This document shows positions 10,898-16,434 of a stretch of DNA of 55,126 bases, piece after piece. The first letter of the stretch is position 1. Each line of letters opens with the position of its first letter. The DNA is from Deltaproteobacteria bacterium (GTDB lineage Bacteria > Desulfobacterota > Dissulfuribacteria > Dissulfuribacterales > UBA3076), in NCBI GenBank assembly GCA_018399745.1, contig JAGYNZ010000017.1, forward strand, positions 1 through 55,126. The letters are read 5' to 3'. The notes beneath the pieces were generated by a model, which worked only from the letters and a program-made list of their open reading frames with translations, was not told the DNA's origin and did not search any database. Both the position numbers and the translations under genes were made by a program.

Positions 10898-11905
10898 ATG
10901 GATTTTGTTGATCAGGCCAAAATATACGTCAAGGCTGGAGACGGAGGGGCCGGGTGCGTGAGCTTTCGCCGGGAGCGTTTTGTCCCCAGGGGGGGGCCTG
11001 ACGGCGGGGATGGAGGCCGCGGAGGAGATGTCATCTTCCGTGTGAATACCGGGCTCAATACACTCCTTTCTTTTCGCAGGAAGCGTCACGTTAAGGCAGG
11101 AAACGGTCAGGCAGGAAAAGGGAAAAATCAGCAAGGCAAGAGCGGTGCAGATATTGAAATACAAGTACCTCAAGGCACTGTCATAAAGGATTCTGAGGAC
11201 GTATTTGTACTGGCGGATCTTACAGATCCTTCAGCCAGCTGGGTTGCCGCCAAGGGAGGGCTGGGCGGTAAAGGAAACGCCCATTTTGTGTCATCAACAC
11301 GTCAGGCGCCTCGCTATGCTCAGCCAGGCCTGCCCGGGGATGAGCGGTGGCTGATTCTTACACTAAAGCTTATTGGTGACGTGGGTCTCATAGGCCTTCC
11401 CAATTCAGGGAAGTCAACTCTGCTCGCGAGGATATCGGCGGCAAGGCCTAAGATAGCGGATTATCCCTTTACCACCCTTGTGCCAAATCTGGGTGTGGTA
11501 GAGCTCTCGAATGACAGGACCATGGTAGTAGCTGACATACCGGGTCTTATTGAGGGGGCCCACAAGGGTGTAGGCATGGGTCTTGATTTTCTGAGGCATA
11601 TCGAGAGGACCAGGGTCCTGCTGTATGTTCTGGATGCCTCTCAAGGGAAAGAGTCTGTCCTGCACAGCTACCAGACTATCAGGGAGGAAATAAAAAAATA
11701 CCATGTACCTCTTATTGAAAAGCCCCAGGCCGTAGCCTTAAACAAGATAGATATTACAGACGAGGTCAGTATAGAGAGAGCCAAAGAGGCCGTGGCGGAA
11801 GAAGGACACAGGATTTATACTATTTCAGCCCTTACTGGATCTGGAGTATCTTTGCTTATAGAGGACCTATATAAGATAGTGAATTCAGGAATTGATGATT
11901 TGTGA
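10898..11905 (+). CDS. obgE: Obg/CgtA GTPase
   Basis: A 335-residue ribosome-associated GTPase involved in 50S maturation. The N-terminal glycine-rich Obg fold (about 1-157) is visible, with repeated GGDGG/GGRGGD stretches, followed by the GTPase domain with P-loop GLPNSGKST, the switch region DIPGLIEGAHKG and NKID. The variable C-terminal OCT domain of some species is absent, as in many Proteobacteria of this length. The ATG lacks a strong ribosome binding site. It sits between ribosomal genes and proBA, a common arrangement. Confidence 0.97.
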   Translation: MDFVDQAKIYVKAGDGGAGCVSFRRERFVPRGGPDGGDGGRGGDVIFRVNTGLNTLLSFRRKRHVKAGNGQAGKGKNQQGKSGADIEIQVPQGTVIKDSEDVFVLADLTDPSASWVAAKGGLGGKGNAHFVSSTRQAPRYAQPGLPGDERWLILTLKLIGDVGLIGLPNSGKSTLLARISAARPKIADYPFTTLVPNLGVVELSNDRTMVVADIPGLIEGAHKGVGMGLDFLRHIERTRVLLYVLDASQGKESVLHSYQTIREEIKKYHVPLIEKPQAVALNKIDITDEVSIERAKEAVAEEGHRIYTISALTGSGVSLLIEDLYKIVNSGIDDL

Positions 11906-11974: not shown

Positions 11975-13117
11975 ATGGAAACTATGTCACGGATAGAGGG
12001 TCGTAAATTTTTAAAATCCGTACGCAAGGTTGTAATAAAGGTGGGAAGCGCTGTCCTTACTGACGAAAATGGCCTTAATGATCAGGTAATAGCAGACCTT
12101 TGCGCCCAGGTTGCCTTACTTCGCAAAGAAGGCCTGGAGATTACCATTGTCTCCTCCGGGGCCATAGCTGCCGGCCTGGGGAAGATGCCGGGGCTTCAGG
12201 CAACCAAGACTATTCCGGAGAAACAGGCAATGGCCGCACTTGGACAGGGCCGTCTCATTCAGGCCTATGAGGATGCCTTCAGTAATCACAGCATCCACGT
12301 GGCCCAGATTCTGCTCACCAGGGAAGGATTGGTTTCGAGGTATCGTTACCTTAATGCAAAAAATACCCTGCAGACCTTGTTACAGTGGAATATTATTCCA
12401 ATTATCAATGAAAATGATACCGTGGCTACAGAGGAGCTTCAGTTTACTGACAACGACGCCCTGGCCGCGCTGATTGTAAATTTGGTGGAGGCAGAGGTCC
12501 TTATCTGCCTGAGTGATGTGGACGGGCTTTATGACGGAGATCCGAGAGAAAAACCAGACGCAAAGCGCGTTCCTGAGGTATCAAAGATAGACAAGTCAGT
12601 AACTGATTTTGCCAGTGATTGCCTGGGAAGGGCCGGCCGGGGAGGTATGAAGTCGAAATTGGAGGCAGCCCAAATGGTGACGGCTTGCGGTATTCCTATG
12701 CTGGTTGCCAGGGGCAGGACCGACCGAATATTGACTCGAATTTTTGCCGGAGAAGACGTGGGCACGTTGTTTTGTGCAAGCAAGCGCAGGATATACGGGC
12801 GAAAGCCATGGATTGTATTCACCCTTGCTCGGGAAGGTGTACTTGAAATCGATCAGGGGGCAGTAAGGGCAATGGTGGATAATGGTAAGAGCCTTTTGCC
12901 TGTCGGTATCAGGGCGGTTCAGGAGGATTTTGAGGCCGGAGCATGTGTCGTATGCCGTGATAGTTCGGGAAAAGAGGTTGCTGTAGGGCTCAGTAACTAT
13001 AATTCCCAAGACATTCGCAAAATTTGTGGTTGTCAGACAGGTGAAATATATGAGATAATCGGTCATCAGGGGACGAGCGAGGTCATACACAGGGATAATA
13101 TGGTGGTTTTATTATGA
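11975..13117 (+). CDS. proB: Glutamate 5-kinase with PUA domain
   Basis: First enzyme of proline synthesis: phosphorylates L-glutamate to gamma-glutamyl phosphate. The amino acid kinase domain (about 10-260) includes [37 protein letters not shown] and [10 protein letters not shown]; a C-terminal PUA domain (about 285-370) follows, giving the standard 380-residue two-domain form. Feedback inhibition by proline is a family property. Its stop overlaps the proA ATG (ATGA), so the two are translationally coupled and the unstable intermediate can pass between them. Confidence 0.97.
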
Positions 13118-14373
13118 GTGACATACAGAATTTAATAGCAAAAATGGCAAAAGAGGCAAAGAAGGCAGCAAGAGAGGTTGCCAAGCTCTCGACTACGGTG
13201 AAAAACGATGTCCTGCTGAGGACTGCGGAAAGAATAACAGAGGTCCGGGAAAGGCTGAAGGAGGAGAACGAAAAAGATCTTAAAAAGGCGAGAGAGAAAG
13301 GTGTCGGTTCTGCATTCATGGATCGCCTGAGGCTGTCGGACAAGGTCATTGATTCCATGGCTGAAGGCCTCAGGGATGTGGCTGCCCTGCCGGATCCTGT
13401 GGGCGAGATTTCGAAGATGTGGAAGAGACCCAACGGACTTACAGTAGGCAGAGTTCGAATACCCCTGGGTGTAATCGGAATGATTTACGAGTCCAGACCG
13501 AATGTAACCATAGATGCGGCGGGCCTCTGTCTCAAGGCTGGGAATGCCGTAATACTTAAAGGGGGATCAGACGCCCTCTATTCCAATCTGGCCCTGGCCT
13601 TCATACTGCAGGAGGTGCTGATGGAGTTTTCTGTGCCTGCAGGAGCGGCGCAGGTAGTATCAACCATTGACAGGGCGGCGGTTACAGAGCTTCTGAAAAG
13701 AGAAGAAGAAATAGATGTCATAATCCCAAGGGGGGGTGAAGGCCTTATACGTTTTGTTGCCGAGCACTCCCGTGTGCCTGTGCTGAAGCACTATAAAGGC
13801 GTGTGTCATGTATATGTAGACAAGTGGGCCGATTTTAATATAGCCAGAGAGGTCTGTTTTAATTCCAAGGTGCAGAGGCCGGGCGTCTGCAATGCCATGG
13901 AAGGCATGCTTGTACACAGGAATATTGCAAATGAATTTCTACCCTTAATGGCCAAGTTGTTTAAGGATGCCGATGTGGAACTCAGGGGGTGTGAGCGCAC
14001 TTGCGCATTGGTGCCTTTTGCAAAAGCGGCCACTGATGAGGACTGGGGAACTGAGTTTTTGGATCTGATCCTGGCTGTAAAGGTGGTTGACGACATAGAT
14101 GAGGCCATGGACTATATTGCCCGCTACGGTTCAAATCATACTGATGCAATAGTCACGAGGGATTACGCAAGGGCGAGGAGGTTTCTGACAGAAGTGGATG
14201 CATCTCTGGTCATAGTAAATGCTTCAACCCGGTTTAATGACGGTGGACAGTTGGGTCTTGGAGCAGAGATAGGGATCAGCACATCCAAGCTGCATGCCTA
14301 TGGTCCAATGGGGCTTGAGGAGCTAACTACCACAAAATTCATAGCCTTCGGTGACGGCCAGATAAGGAGCTAG
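13114..14373 (+). CDS. proA: Gamma-glutamyl phosphate reductase
   Basis: Second enzyme of proline synthesis, an NADPH-dependent aldehyde dehydrogenase-fold protein of 419 residues that yields glutamate semialdehyde. Recognisable segments are [33 protein letters not shown] and [11 protein letters not shown], the last bearing the catalytic cysteine (here [15 protein letters not shown]). It ends one base before the GTG start of the nadD-rsfS gene, so proB, proA and that fusion probably form one transcript. Confidence 0.97.
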
Positions 14374-14374
14374 T

Positions 14375-15403
14375 GTGCGCATAGGTCTGTTGGGAGGCAC
14401 GCTGGACCCTGTCCACTTTGGCCATCTCAGGTCGGCTGAGGAGATCAGAGAGGTCATGGAGCTGGATGAAATCTGGTTTATGCCTGCCGCCCTGCCGCCA
14501 CATAAGGAACCATCAAATATTACCCCCTTTTCCCACCGTCTTGCAATGGTGGAGCTGGCAGTAAATTCTACTGAATTTTTCAAGGCAACAGCTATTGAGG
14601 GCGAACGCATCGAGCCGTCGTATTCCATTGATACCTTAAGGGAGCTCAGGAAAAGGCATAAAAACAAGGCTGAATTTTTCTTTATTCTGGGCAGTGACGC
14701 CTTTCTGGACATTGAGACATGGAAGGACCATGACAGCCTTACGGACTATGGTTCTCTGGTAATAATGAGACGGGGTACTGAAGACTCGTCACGATTGAAA
14801 CAGGTCATATCACGGGCATTTCCAAATCATCGTATACAGGGGGAAAAGGGCCTTTTTATTGCCCATGATAAAGGTGCTATCTACCTTTATTCGGTGACTC
14901 ACCTTGCCATTTCGGGAACTGATATACGGCATAGGGCAAGAACAGGGCTTTCTGTGCGTTTTCTTGTCCCTGAAAAAGTCAGGATATATATGGAAAAAAA
15001 TAGCTTGTATGCTGAGCCGGCAGGTGATCCTTCACCATCTTTCGGGCACAAAGAATCTAAAGTTTCATCTTTAGCAGAACCAGTTCAACAAATAGTTGCT
15101 GGAATCATTGAAAACAAAGGGGAACAGGTTGTAGTCCTGGACATGAGAGGTATTTCTCCCCTTGCTGATTTTTTTGTCATCTCCCATGGACGATCAACCA
15201 GACATGTTCAGGGTATTGCGAACAAGTTGCGCAAGGACCTTCGCAAAAAGGGAATCAGGTGCAGAGGAGTTGAAGGGGAAAAGGAAGGCAAGTGGATATT
15301 AATGGACTATGGCGACGTTATTGTACACCTGTTTTACGAGCCCACAAGGGATTTTTACGACCTTGAAGGCCTTTGGAGCGAGGTTTCGAGAATTATATTC
15401 TAG
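14375..15403 (+). CDS. nadD: NadD-RsfS fusion: nicotinate-nucleotide adenylyltransferase and ribosome silencing factor
   Basis: One uninterrupted 342-residue frame holds two proteins that are normally separate. Residues 1-211 are NadD, making deamido-NAD from nicotinate mononucleotide and ATP: GGTLDPVHFGH (7-17), PPHKEP (41-46) and ISGTDIRHRA (179-188). A linker rich in P, S and G (about 212-231) joins RsfS (232-342), which binds uL14 and blocks subunit joining under starvation: VVVLDMRGISPLADFFVI and WILMDYGDVIVHLFYEPTR. The genes are often neighbours, so fusion by loss of a stop is plausible. GTG 14375 is the start, one base after proA. A sequencing frameshift cannot be excluded but both halves are intact and in the same frame. 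Confidence 0.9.
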   Translation: MRIGLLGGTLDPVHFGHLRSAEEIREVMELDEIWFMPAALPPHKEPSNITPFSHRLAMVELAVNSTEFFKATAIEGERIEPSYSIDTLRELRKRHKNKAEFFFILGSDAFLDIETWKDHDSLTDYGSLVIMRRGTEDSSRLKQVISRAFPNHRIQGEKGLFIAHDKGAIYLYSVTHLAISGTDIRHRARTGLSVRFLVPEKVRIYMEKNSLYAEPAGDPSPSFGHKESKVSSLAEPVQQIVAGIIENKGEQVVVLDMRGISPLADFFVISHGRSTRHVQGIANKLRKDLRKKGIRCRGVEGEKEGKWILMDYGDVIVHLFYEPTRDFYDLEGLWSEVSRIIF

Positions 15404-15426: not shown

Positions 15427-16434
15427 ATGAAAGATTCGATCTGTGAGTTCAAAGCGGTAAGCAAGGACTATTCCAATCGACATGGTTTTTTTGCCACAGA
15501 TTCATACAAGATTAAGGCATTGGACAGGATCAGTCTGTCTGTGAAACAAGATGAGATTTTGGGACTTGTCGGAGAGAGTGGCTGCGGGAAATCCACGCTG
15601 GCCAAAATAGCATTGGGGCTTGAATCTCCTACCAGTGGACAGGTTTTCTTTTTCGGACATGACATCGCTGGTTTTGATAAAGCCAGGATGAAAATTTTTC
15701 GGCGTCAGGCACAGATGGTTTTCCAGGACCCCTTTTCATCGCTAAATCCTAAAAAGACGGTCTTGAAAATCCTGAGCGAACCACTAAAAATACACAAGCT
15801 GTGTCCAAGGGACCATTATAAGGAGCGTGTGTCAGAACTTTTACAGGAAGTCGGCCTGAGCGAACGGATTCTGAACCGCTATCCGCATGAATTCAGCGGA
15901 GGCCAGCGTCAGCGTATCGGTTTGGCCAGGGCCCTTGCCACAACGCCCAGAATGATAGTTGCAGATGAGCCTACATCTGCTCTTGATGTCTCTATACAGG
16001 CCCAGATCATAAATCTGCTTCTTGACCTTCAGGAAAGGCATAAGCTCTCTTTTCTTTTTATCTCGCATGACCTTCCTGTTATACAATTTTTAAGTCATCG
16101 TGTAGCAGTTGTATATAATGGCCAGCTTATGGAATTGATGCCCAAACGTGCATTTCTGCAGTCACCACATCGCCCGGTCACCAAATCACCAAATTGCCAT
16201 CATCCTTATACATCGCTCCTTCTGAGTTCTGTTCCTGTTCCGGATCCAAAGGTGCGTACGAAGGCAAAGAAAGGAGATCATGGAGCCACACTTGATTATA
16301 AAAGCGATAGATGTCAGGATGGATGCGCCTTTTGTCCCAGGTGCGATCTGGCTATAGACAGATGTGGCGTAGAACGCCCTTTATTAAAGGAAATTGAAAA
16401 AAACCACTTTATTGCGTGTCACATTATAACTTGA
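15427..16434 (+). CDS. Oligopeptide/dipeptide ABC transporter ATPase, OppF/DppF type
   Basis: A 335-residue ATP-binding subunit of a peptide importer. Visible are Walker A GESGCGKST, the Q-loop VFQDPFSSLNP, signature FSGGQRQR, Walker B MIVADEPTSALD and the H-loop SHD, with the C-terminal cysteine-rich segment FCPRCDLAIDRC typical of OppD/F. No permease, binding protein or OppD is nearby, so it is an orphan here and must pair with subunits elsewhere or act with another partner. Just before the conserved HPYT segment an 11-residue insertion (RPVTKSPNCHH) duplicates part of the local sequence. Its stop codon lies in the left terminal repeat of a MITE-like element. Confidence 0.88.
   Translation: MKDSICEFKAVSKDYSNRHGFFATDSYKIKALDRISLSVKQDEILGLVGESGCGKSTLAKIALGLESPTSGQVFFFGHDIAGFDKARMKIFRRQAQMVFQDPFSSLNPKKTVLKILSEPLKIHKLCPRDHYKERVSELLQEVGLSERILNRYPHEFSGGQRQRIGLARALATTPRMIVADEPTSALDVSIQAQIINLLLDLQERHKLSFLFISHDLPVIQFLSHRVAVVYNGQLMELMPKRAFLQSPHRPVTKSPNCHHPYTSLLLSSVPVPDPKVRTKAKKGDHGATLDYKSDRCQDGCAFCPRCDLAIDRCGVERPLLKEIEKNHFIACHIIT

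Follow-up and report, generated by a model that had tools for sequence, protein, structure and literature searches.

Does the bacterium that carries this DNA build its NAD-making adenylyltransferase and its ribosome silencing factor as a single protein, and, if so, does that union place translation under metabolic control? A first-pass annotation of the window (the whole stretch of 55,126 nucleotides analysed here) had claimed the first and hinted at the second.

One reading frame for NadD and RsfS

The gene occupies positions 14375..15403 of the forward strand, comprises 342 codons plus TAG, and is present in a single copy in the genome. Its frame opens with a GTG one base behind the proA stop codon, with AGGAG five bases 5' of the GTG, and encodes 342 residues with no interruption. 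Residues 1–213 (14375..15013, forward strand) form the nicotinate-nucleotide adenylyltransferase (NadD) domain, as delimited by Pfam, NCBIfam, alignment and a PDB fold search: the Pfam family CTP_transf_like covers residues 5–187 (79.2 bits versus a cut-off of 21), and the NCBIfam NadD equivalogs TIGR00482 (158.9 bits versus 112.45) and NF000840 (181.9 versus 150) both exceed their curated cut-offs. Residues 238–342 (15086..15400, forward strand) form the ribosomal silencing factor (RsfS) domain, with Pfam PF02410 at residues 239–334 (109.8 bits versus 21.6) and the NCBIfam RsfS equivalog TIGR00090 above its curated cut-off (112.6 bits versus 56.9). Both families thus reside in one uninterrupted frame. 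The two-domain protein encoded by this single ORF is genuine, and the claim of a true 342-residue NadD–RsfS fusion holds, the frame being open throughout and both domains passing curated cut-offs. Judged from its sequence, the gene would yield a single product of ~38 kDa, which probably retains both activities.

This is the only fusion locus in the genome, where no second NadD or RsfS match was found at E <= 1. PF01467 matches four of the encoded proteins: the fusion, CoaD, an amidase–HldE fusion and a protein that weakly resembles NMN adenylyltransferases of the archaeal type. The third of these (L080:1399-2676, reverse strand; G000:C2 near 41265) joins a carbon-nitrogen hydrolase (nitrilase/amidase-like) to a heptose-1-phosphate adenylyltransferase (HldE C-terminal) in 425 residues. 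The fourth (L081:1384-1956, reverse strand; G000:C2 near 59739) has 190 residues and scores 50 bits against NF002243, which has a cut-off of 127; on sequence grounds it is possible that this protein is a second enzyme for the NadD step. NAD synthetase is also encoded in the genome.

The motifs that the first-pass annotation had called complete on both sides are intact. Across 35 of the 39 fusions found in class Dissulfuribacteria (L006, L041, L044 and L050, whose start is unclear or which are truncated where a contig ends, were left out of the alignment and of the AlphaFold input), the NadD motif residues G7, G8, P12, H14, G16, H17, S180 and R185 are invariant. We take the motifs concerned to be the nucleotide-binding GG[TS][FL]DPxHxGH and a C-terminal motif of the SxTxIR type. 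On the RsfS side, E300 and D311 are invariant in the 35 aligned fusions and Y328 is found in more than 90%. These three residues correspond to Glu70, Asp81 and Tyr98 of S. aureus RsfS, which are described as conserved uL14 contacts (PMC7125091), and the uL14 encoded in the same genome as the fusion (L082) keeps R97, R107 and K113, the partners of the RsfS contact residues. Among seven of the eight genus members (L006 was left out), dN/dS is 0.19 for NadD, 0.13 for RsfS and 0.65 for the linker, the last value resting on 24 codons. Methionines at RsfS residues 257, 281 and 285 are present in 49–59% of fused rows and are absent or rare outside the class.

Solved relatives exist for each half, and none of those listed is named as a fusion; NadD structures are among the best 50 matches of the PDB fold search. 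The stand-alone NadD of P. aeruginosa (1yul) shows 38% identity over 215 columns and a TM-score of 0.84 by target length but, unlike the window's protein, has no C-terminal RsfS. Stand-alone S. aureus RsfS, conversely, matches over the whole domain in sequence and lacks an N-terminal NadD (PMC7125091).

Upstream of the gene on the same strand are obgE (10898..11905), proB (11975..13117) and, ending one base before the start codon of the fusion, proA (13114..14373), so that the order obgE-proB-proA-nadD-rsfS is that of the known gene cluster used for comparison. The window differs from that cluster in that proB directly follows obgE, that nadD and rsfS are one gene, and that no room is left between them for yqeK or lytR. 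A gene for an OppF/DppF-like peptide-transport ATPase (15427-16434, forward strand) starts 23 bases behind the fusion, and no further transporter part was seen among the scanned neighbours obgE, proB, proA and lon.

Distribution and origin of the fused gene

All 46 available genomes of class Dissulfuribacteria were searched, and each locus was scored on its stop-to-stop frames. The first-pass annotation had proposed looking for the same fusion in related genomes, and it is there in 39 of the 46, always with an in-frame, stop-free linker. Four genomes have separate nadD and rsfS genes (G012, G013, G015 and G019); the remaining three are unscorable, one ending inside the gene (G041) and two lacking a match (G024, G044). 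The nearest named records are the Deltaproteobacteria MAGs HyVt-14 (88%) and UBA3076 (81%). One fused genome (G014), placed by a kinship search in the same taxonomic order as the window genome, consists of one contig of 2,025,450 bases and seems to be the closed, hybrid-assembled genome of Dissulfurimicrobium hydrothermale Sh68, an isolate belonging to the class (PMC8780430).

This distribution bears on whether the fusion could be an artefact, with a sequencing or assembly error having removed a stop codon or shifted the frame. The window does come from an 88-contig assembly, yet the same fusion is seen in 39 of 46 class genomes, apparently including a closed hybrid-assembled isolate genome, and substitutions in the linker lean to synonymous. 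Because the intact fusion recurs across the class, it cannot stem from a read error in the window, and we give an error of this kind practically no weight.

Outside the class, no fusion was found at any of 23 fetched loci, which were hand-picked, two of them as named records, and do not form a random sample. At 20 of these loci rsfS is a frame of its own behind nadD, and at the other three no rsfS was found within the fetched stretch. In six (L056-L061) a single nadD stop is all that parts the two frames, rsfS opening right after it, so that one stop loss would fuse the two genes. In a wider search of the phylum, covering 197 genomes of which 8 belong to the class, the listed two-domain matches outside the class all contain at least one stop. 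Among the matches listed for the phylum of a Bacillus locus (199 genomes, threshold 1e-38) and for that of a Flavobacteriales locus (198 genomes, threshold 1e-30), none spans both domains, although fusions that have diverged or carry a long linker would escape thresholds of this kind and a one-match criterion. Two further loci, the candidate G431 (with a frame of 335) and G364, were read and proved not to be fusions. Among the best 15 of 63 plasmid records, nadD and rsfS are annotated as separate genes in 11, and 4 carry no annotation there; a PHROGs search returned nothing.

The history of the fusion was examined on a tree of ProA, NadD and RsfS with 64 rows, comprising 37 of the 39 fusions (L044 and L050 were too short), the 4 separate pairs and the 23 outside loci. 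The class is held together (SH-aLRT 96), the fused and separate states require 4 changes, and an exclusive clade of fused rows is rejected by the AU test (p 5.7e-9); deep branch order is poorly supported. The simplest rooted story is one early fusion followed by three later splits, and repeated independent fusion is a possible alternative. At the G013 junction (L053), the nadD and rsfS frames overlap in different phases, no ATG opens rsfS and the sister genera in the tree are fused, a picture suggestive of a once-fused gene with a recent frameshift or an assembly error. For the other separate rsfS genes, a plausible start accompanied by an SD-like sequence is present in G015 and G019, and G012 has an ATG that lacks such a sequence. 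We propose that the ancestor carried nadD and rsfS as co-directional neighbours behind proB-proA, and that loss of the nadD stop codon would have joined them early in Dissulfuribacteria.

A candidate internal start in the nadD portion

The first-pass annotation had also raised the matter of an internal start. Between residues ~203 and 246 of the window's protein, the only in-frame start codons are ATG206 (14990-14992) and a TTG at residue 211, the latter without a Shine-Dalgarno match. The ATG forms part of a candidate start in the 3' end of the NadD region (14981..14992, forward strand), in which AGGA is followed after 5 bases by the codon for M206; initiation here would give a 137-residue RsfS-bearing product. 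An in-frame start preceded by AGGA is present, and the controls set against it came out weak or negative.

If the site were used, the gene would have a dual output, namely the full-length fusion and a free RsfS of ~137 residues begun at ATG 206/207 in the NadD tail. Of 39 fused genes, 33 carry an in-frame ATG at codon 206 or 207, compared with 0 of 23 out-of-class genes, and a few relatives have a stronger TAAGGAGG in place of the window's AGGA. Pairing with the anti-Shine-Dalgarno sequence averages -5.1 kcal/mol at these sites versus -2.9 kcal/mol at 246 other internal ATGs (Mann-Whitney p 0.0007); however, this test ignores kinship, and the 33 ATG-bearing genes are related rather than independent. 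Synonymous redraws of the upstream codons, moreover, pair at least as strongly in 61% of cases for the window, the lowest value of all rows being 3.4%. The methionines at 257, 281 and 285 are similarly class-specific, and no start is expected at those positions. In light of this synonymous-codon null and these other methionine columns, the ATG excess loses most of its force, and we consider dual output unlikely. Were it true, one gene would supply RsfS in two pools, the first bound to NAD synthesis through the tether and the second free.

A tether, and the question of coupling

The region between the domains (residues 214-237; 15014..15085, forward strand) behaves as the flexible linker that had been described at first pass, with low model confidence and poor sequence conservation. 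Measured between fixed landmarks, it spans 12–58 codons and has no evident shared sequence across families. The longest is that of L051 (G016), an unusual 58-codon linker rich in Lys, Glu and Leu, in a protein that also has an acidic C-terminal tail. An AlphaFold model built from 35 rows has a mean pLDDT of 86.7 and a pTM of 0.62, with pLDDT below 50 at residues 216-228, and the linker is predicted to be disordered. The model contains no confident mutual placement of NadD and RsfS, although a weak interface might escape a prediction based on 35 sequences. In our reading, the protein has two folded domains that are loosely tethered.

Based on these data, we propose that one ORF encodes a two-job protein, tethered and with no fixed interface, whose domains work independently and which arose by stop loss; we consider this account probable. 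The NadD half would make NaAD from NaMN and ATP, and the RsfS half would bind uL14 on the 50S subunit and block subunit joining. Because the floppy tether would provide no fixed interface between NadD and RsfS, each half most likely functions independently, and cross-regulation of the halves is presumably absent. The consequences of the tether would be 1:1 co-production and physical co-location. Its retention over most of the class could reflect a usefulness of another, unseen kind.

A more ambitious possibility, hinted at in the first pass as metabolic control of translation, is that NAD status and translation are coupled through the tether, such that a substrate or product of NadD alters the binding of RsfS to the 50S subunit, or the reverse. 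Retention of the fusion in 39 of 46 class genomes and strong constraint on both halves speak for such coupling. Set against it are a linker conserved in neither length (12–58 codons) nor sequence, a model with a pTM of 0.62 in which the domains are not confidently docked, and four class members that keep the genes separate. Pyrophosphatase activity or NAD cleavage is reported in a 2011 table as undetected in E. coli YbeB and in its Wolinella succinogenes counterpart fused to NadD (NadD-YbeB; PMC3223725); this result, too, counts against coupling, although regulation lay outside the reach of that assay. The claim of metabolic control is therefore not supported, and we judge coupling to be quite improbable. 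If it were true, NAD supply would be linked to ribosome availability.

The same 2011 table bears on a further alternative, in which RsfS would have an enzymatic activity of its own, using NAD or cleaving phosphoesters, and would be supplied by NadD. The table predicts an NAD-dependent ribosomal modification for Iojap and records that no such activity was detected (PMC3223725), and RsfS has been described as having a nucleotidyltransferase fold without catalytic residues (PMC11646218). An enzymatic RsfS is thus very hard to credit.

How new is this arrangement? Protein databases annotate proteins of this kind as multifunctional fusions, and Wolinella, in which the pairing has also been described, belongs to another phylum than the window's bacterium. 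The NadD–RsfS fusion is already known as a protein type, the NadD-YbeB of W. succinogenes (YbeB being RsfS/Iojap) having been tabulated in print in 2011 (PMC3223725). Known here by name alone, that protein joins the same two families as the window's, with NadD likewise named first. Full-text searches, with most subscription papers outside their reach, found no literature on the fusion in Dissulfuribacteria. NadD has other fusion partners as well. NF005519, which we take to be the NCBIfam model of the mycoplasma NadD-YqeK fusion, matches residues 1-214 only and falls below its cut-off (113.4 bits versus 315), and Pfam and NCBIfam scans of the fusion found no YqeK HD domain behind NadD. The mycoplasma protein resembles the window's in that NadD is joined to a partner that is a neighbour gene elsewhere; there, however, the partner is a hydrolase that proofreads NAD synthesis (PMC9426524), whereas the RsfS of the window is a non-catalytic 50S-binding protein.

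Taken as a whole, these data describe a fusion stably carried by most members of one class of sulfur-cycling bacteria, from which an isolate is available. They support a simple route by which gene neighbours become a fused gene through the loss of one stop codon. The fusion also offers a natural system for asking if a silencing factor works while tied to a housekeeping enzyme.
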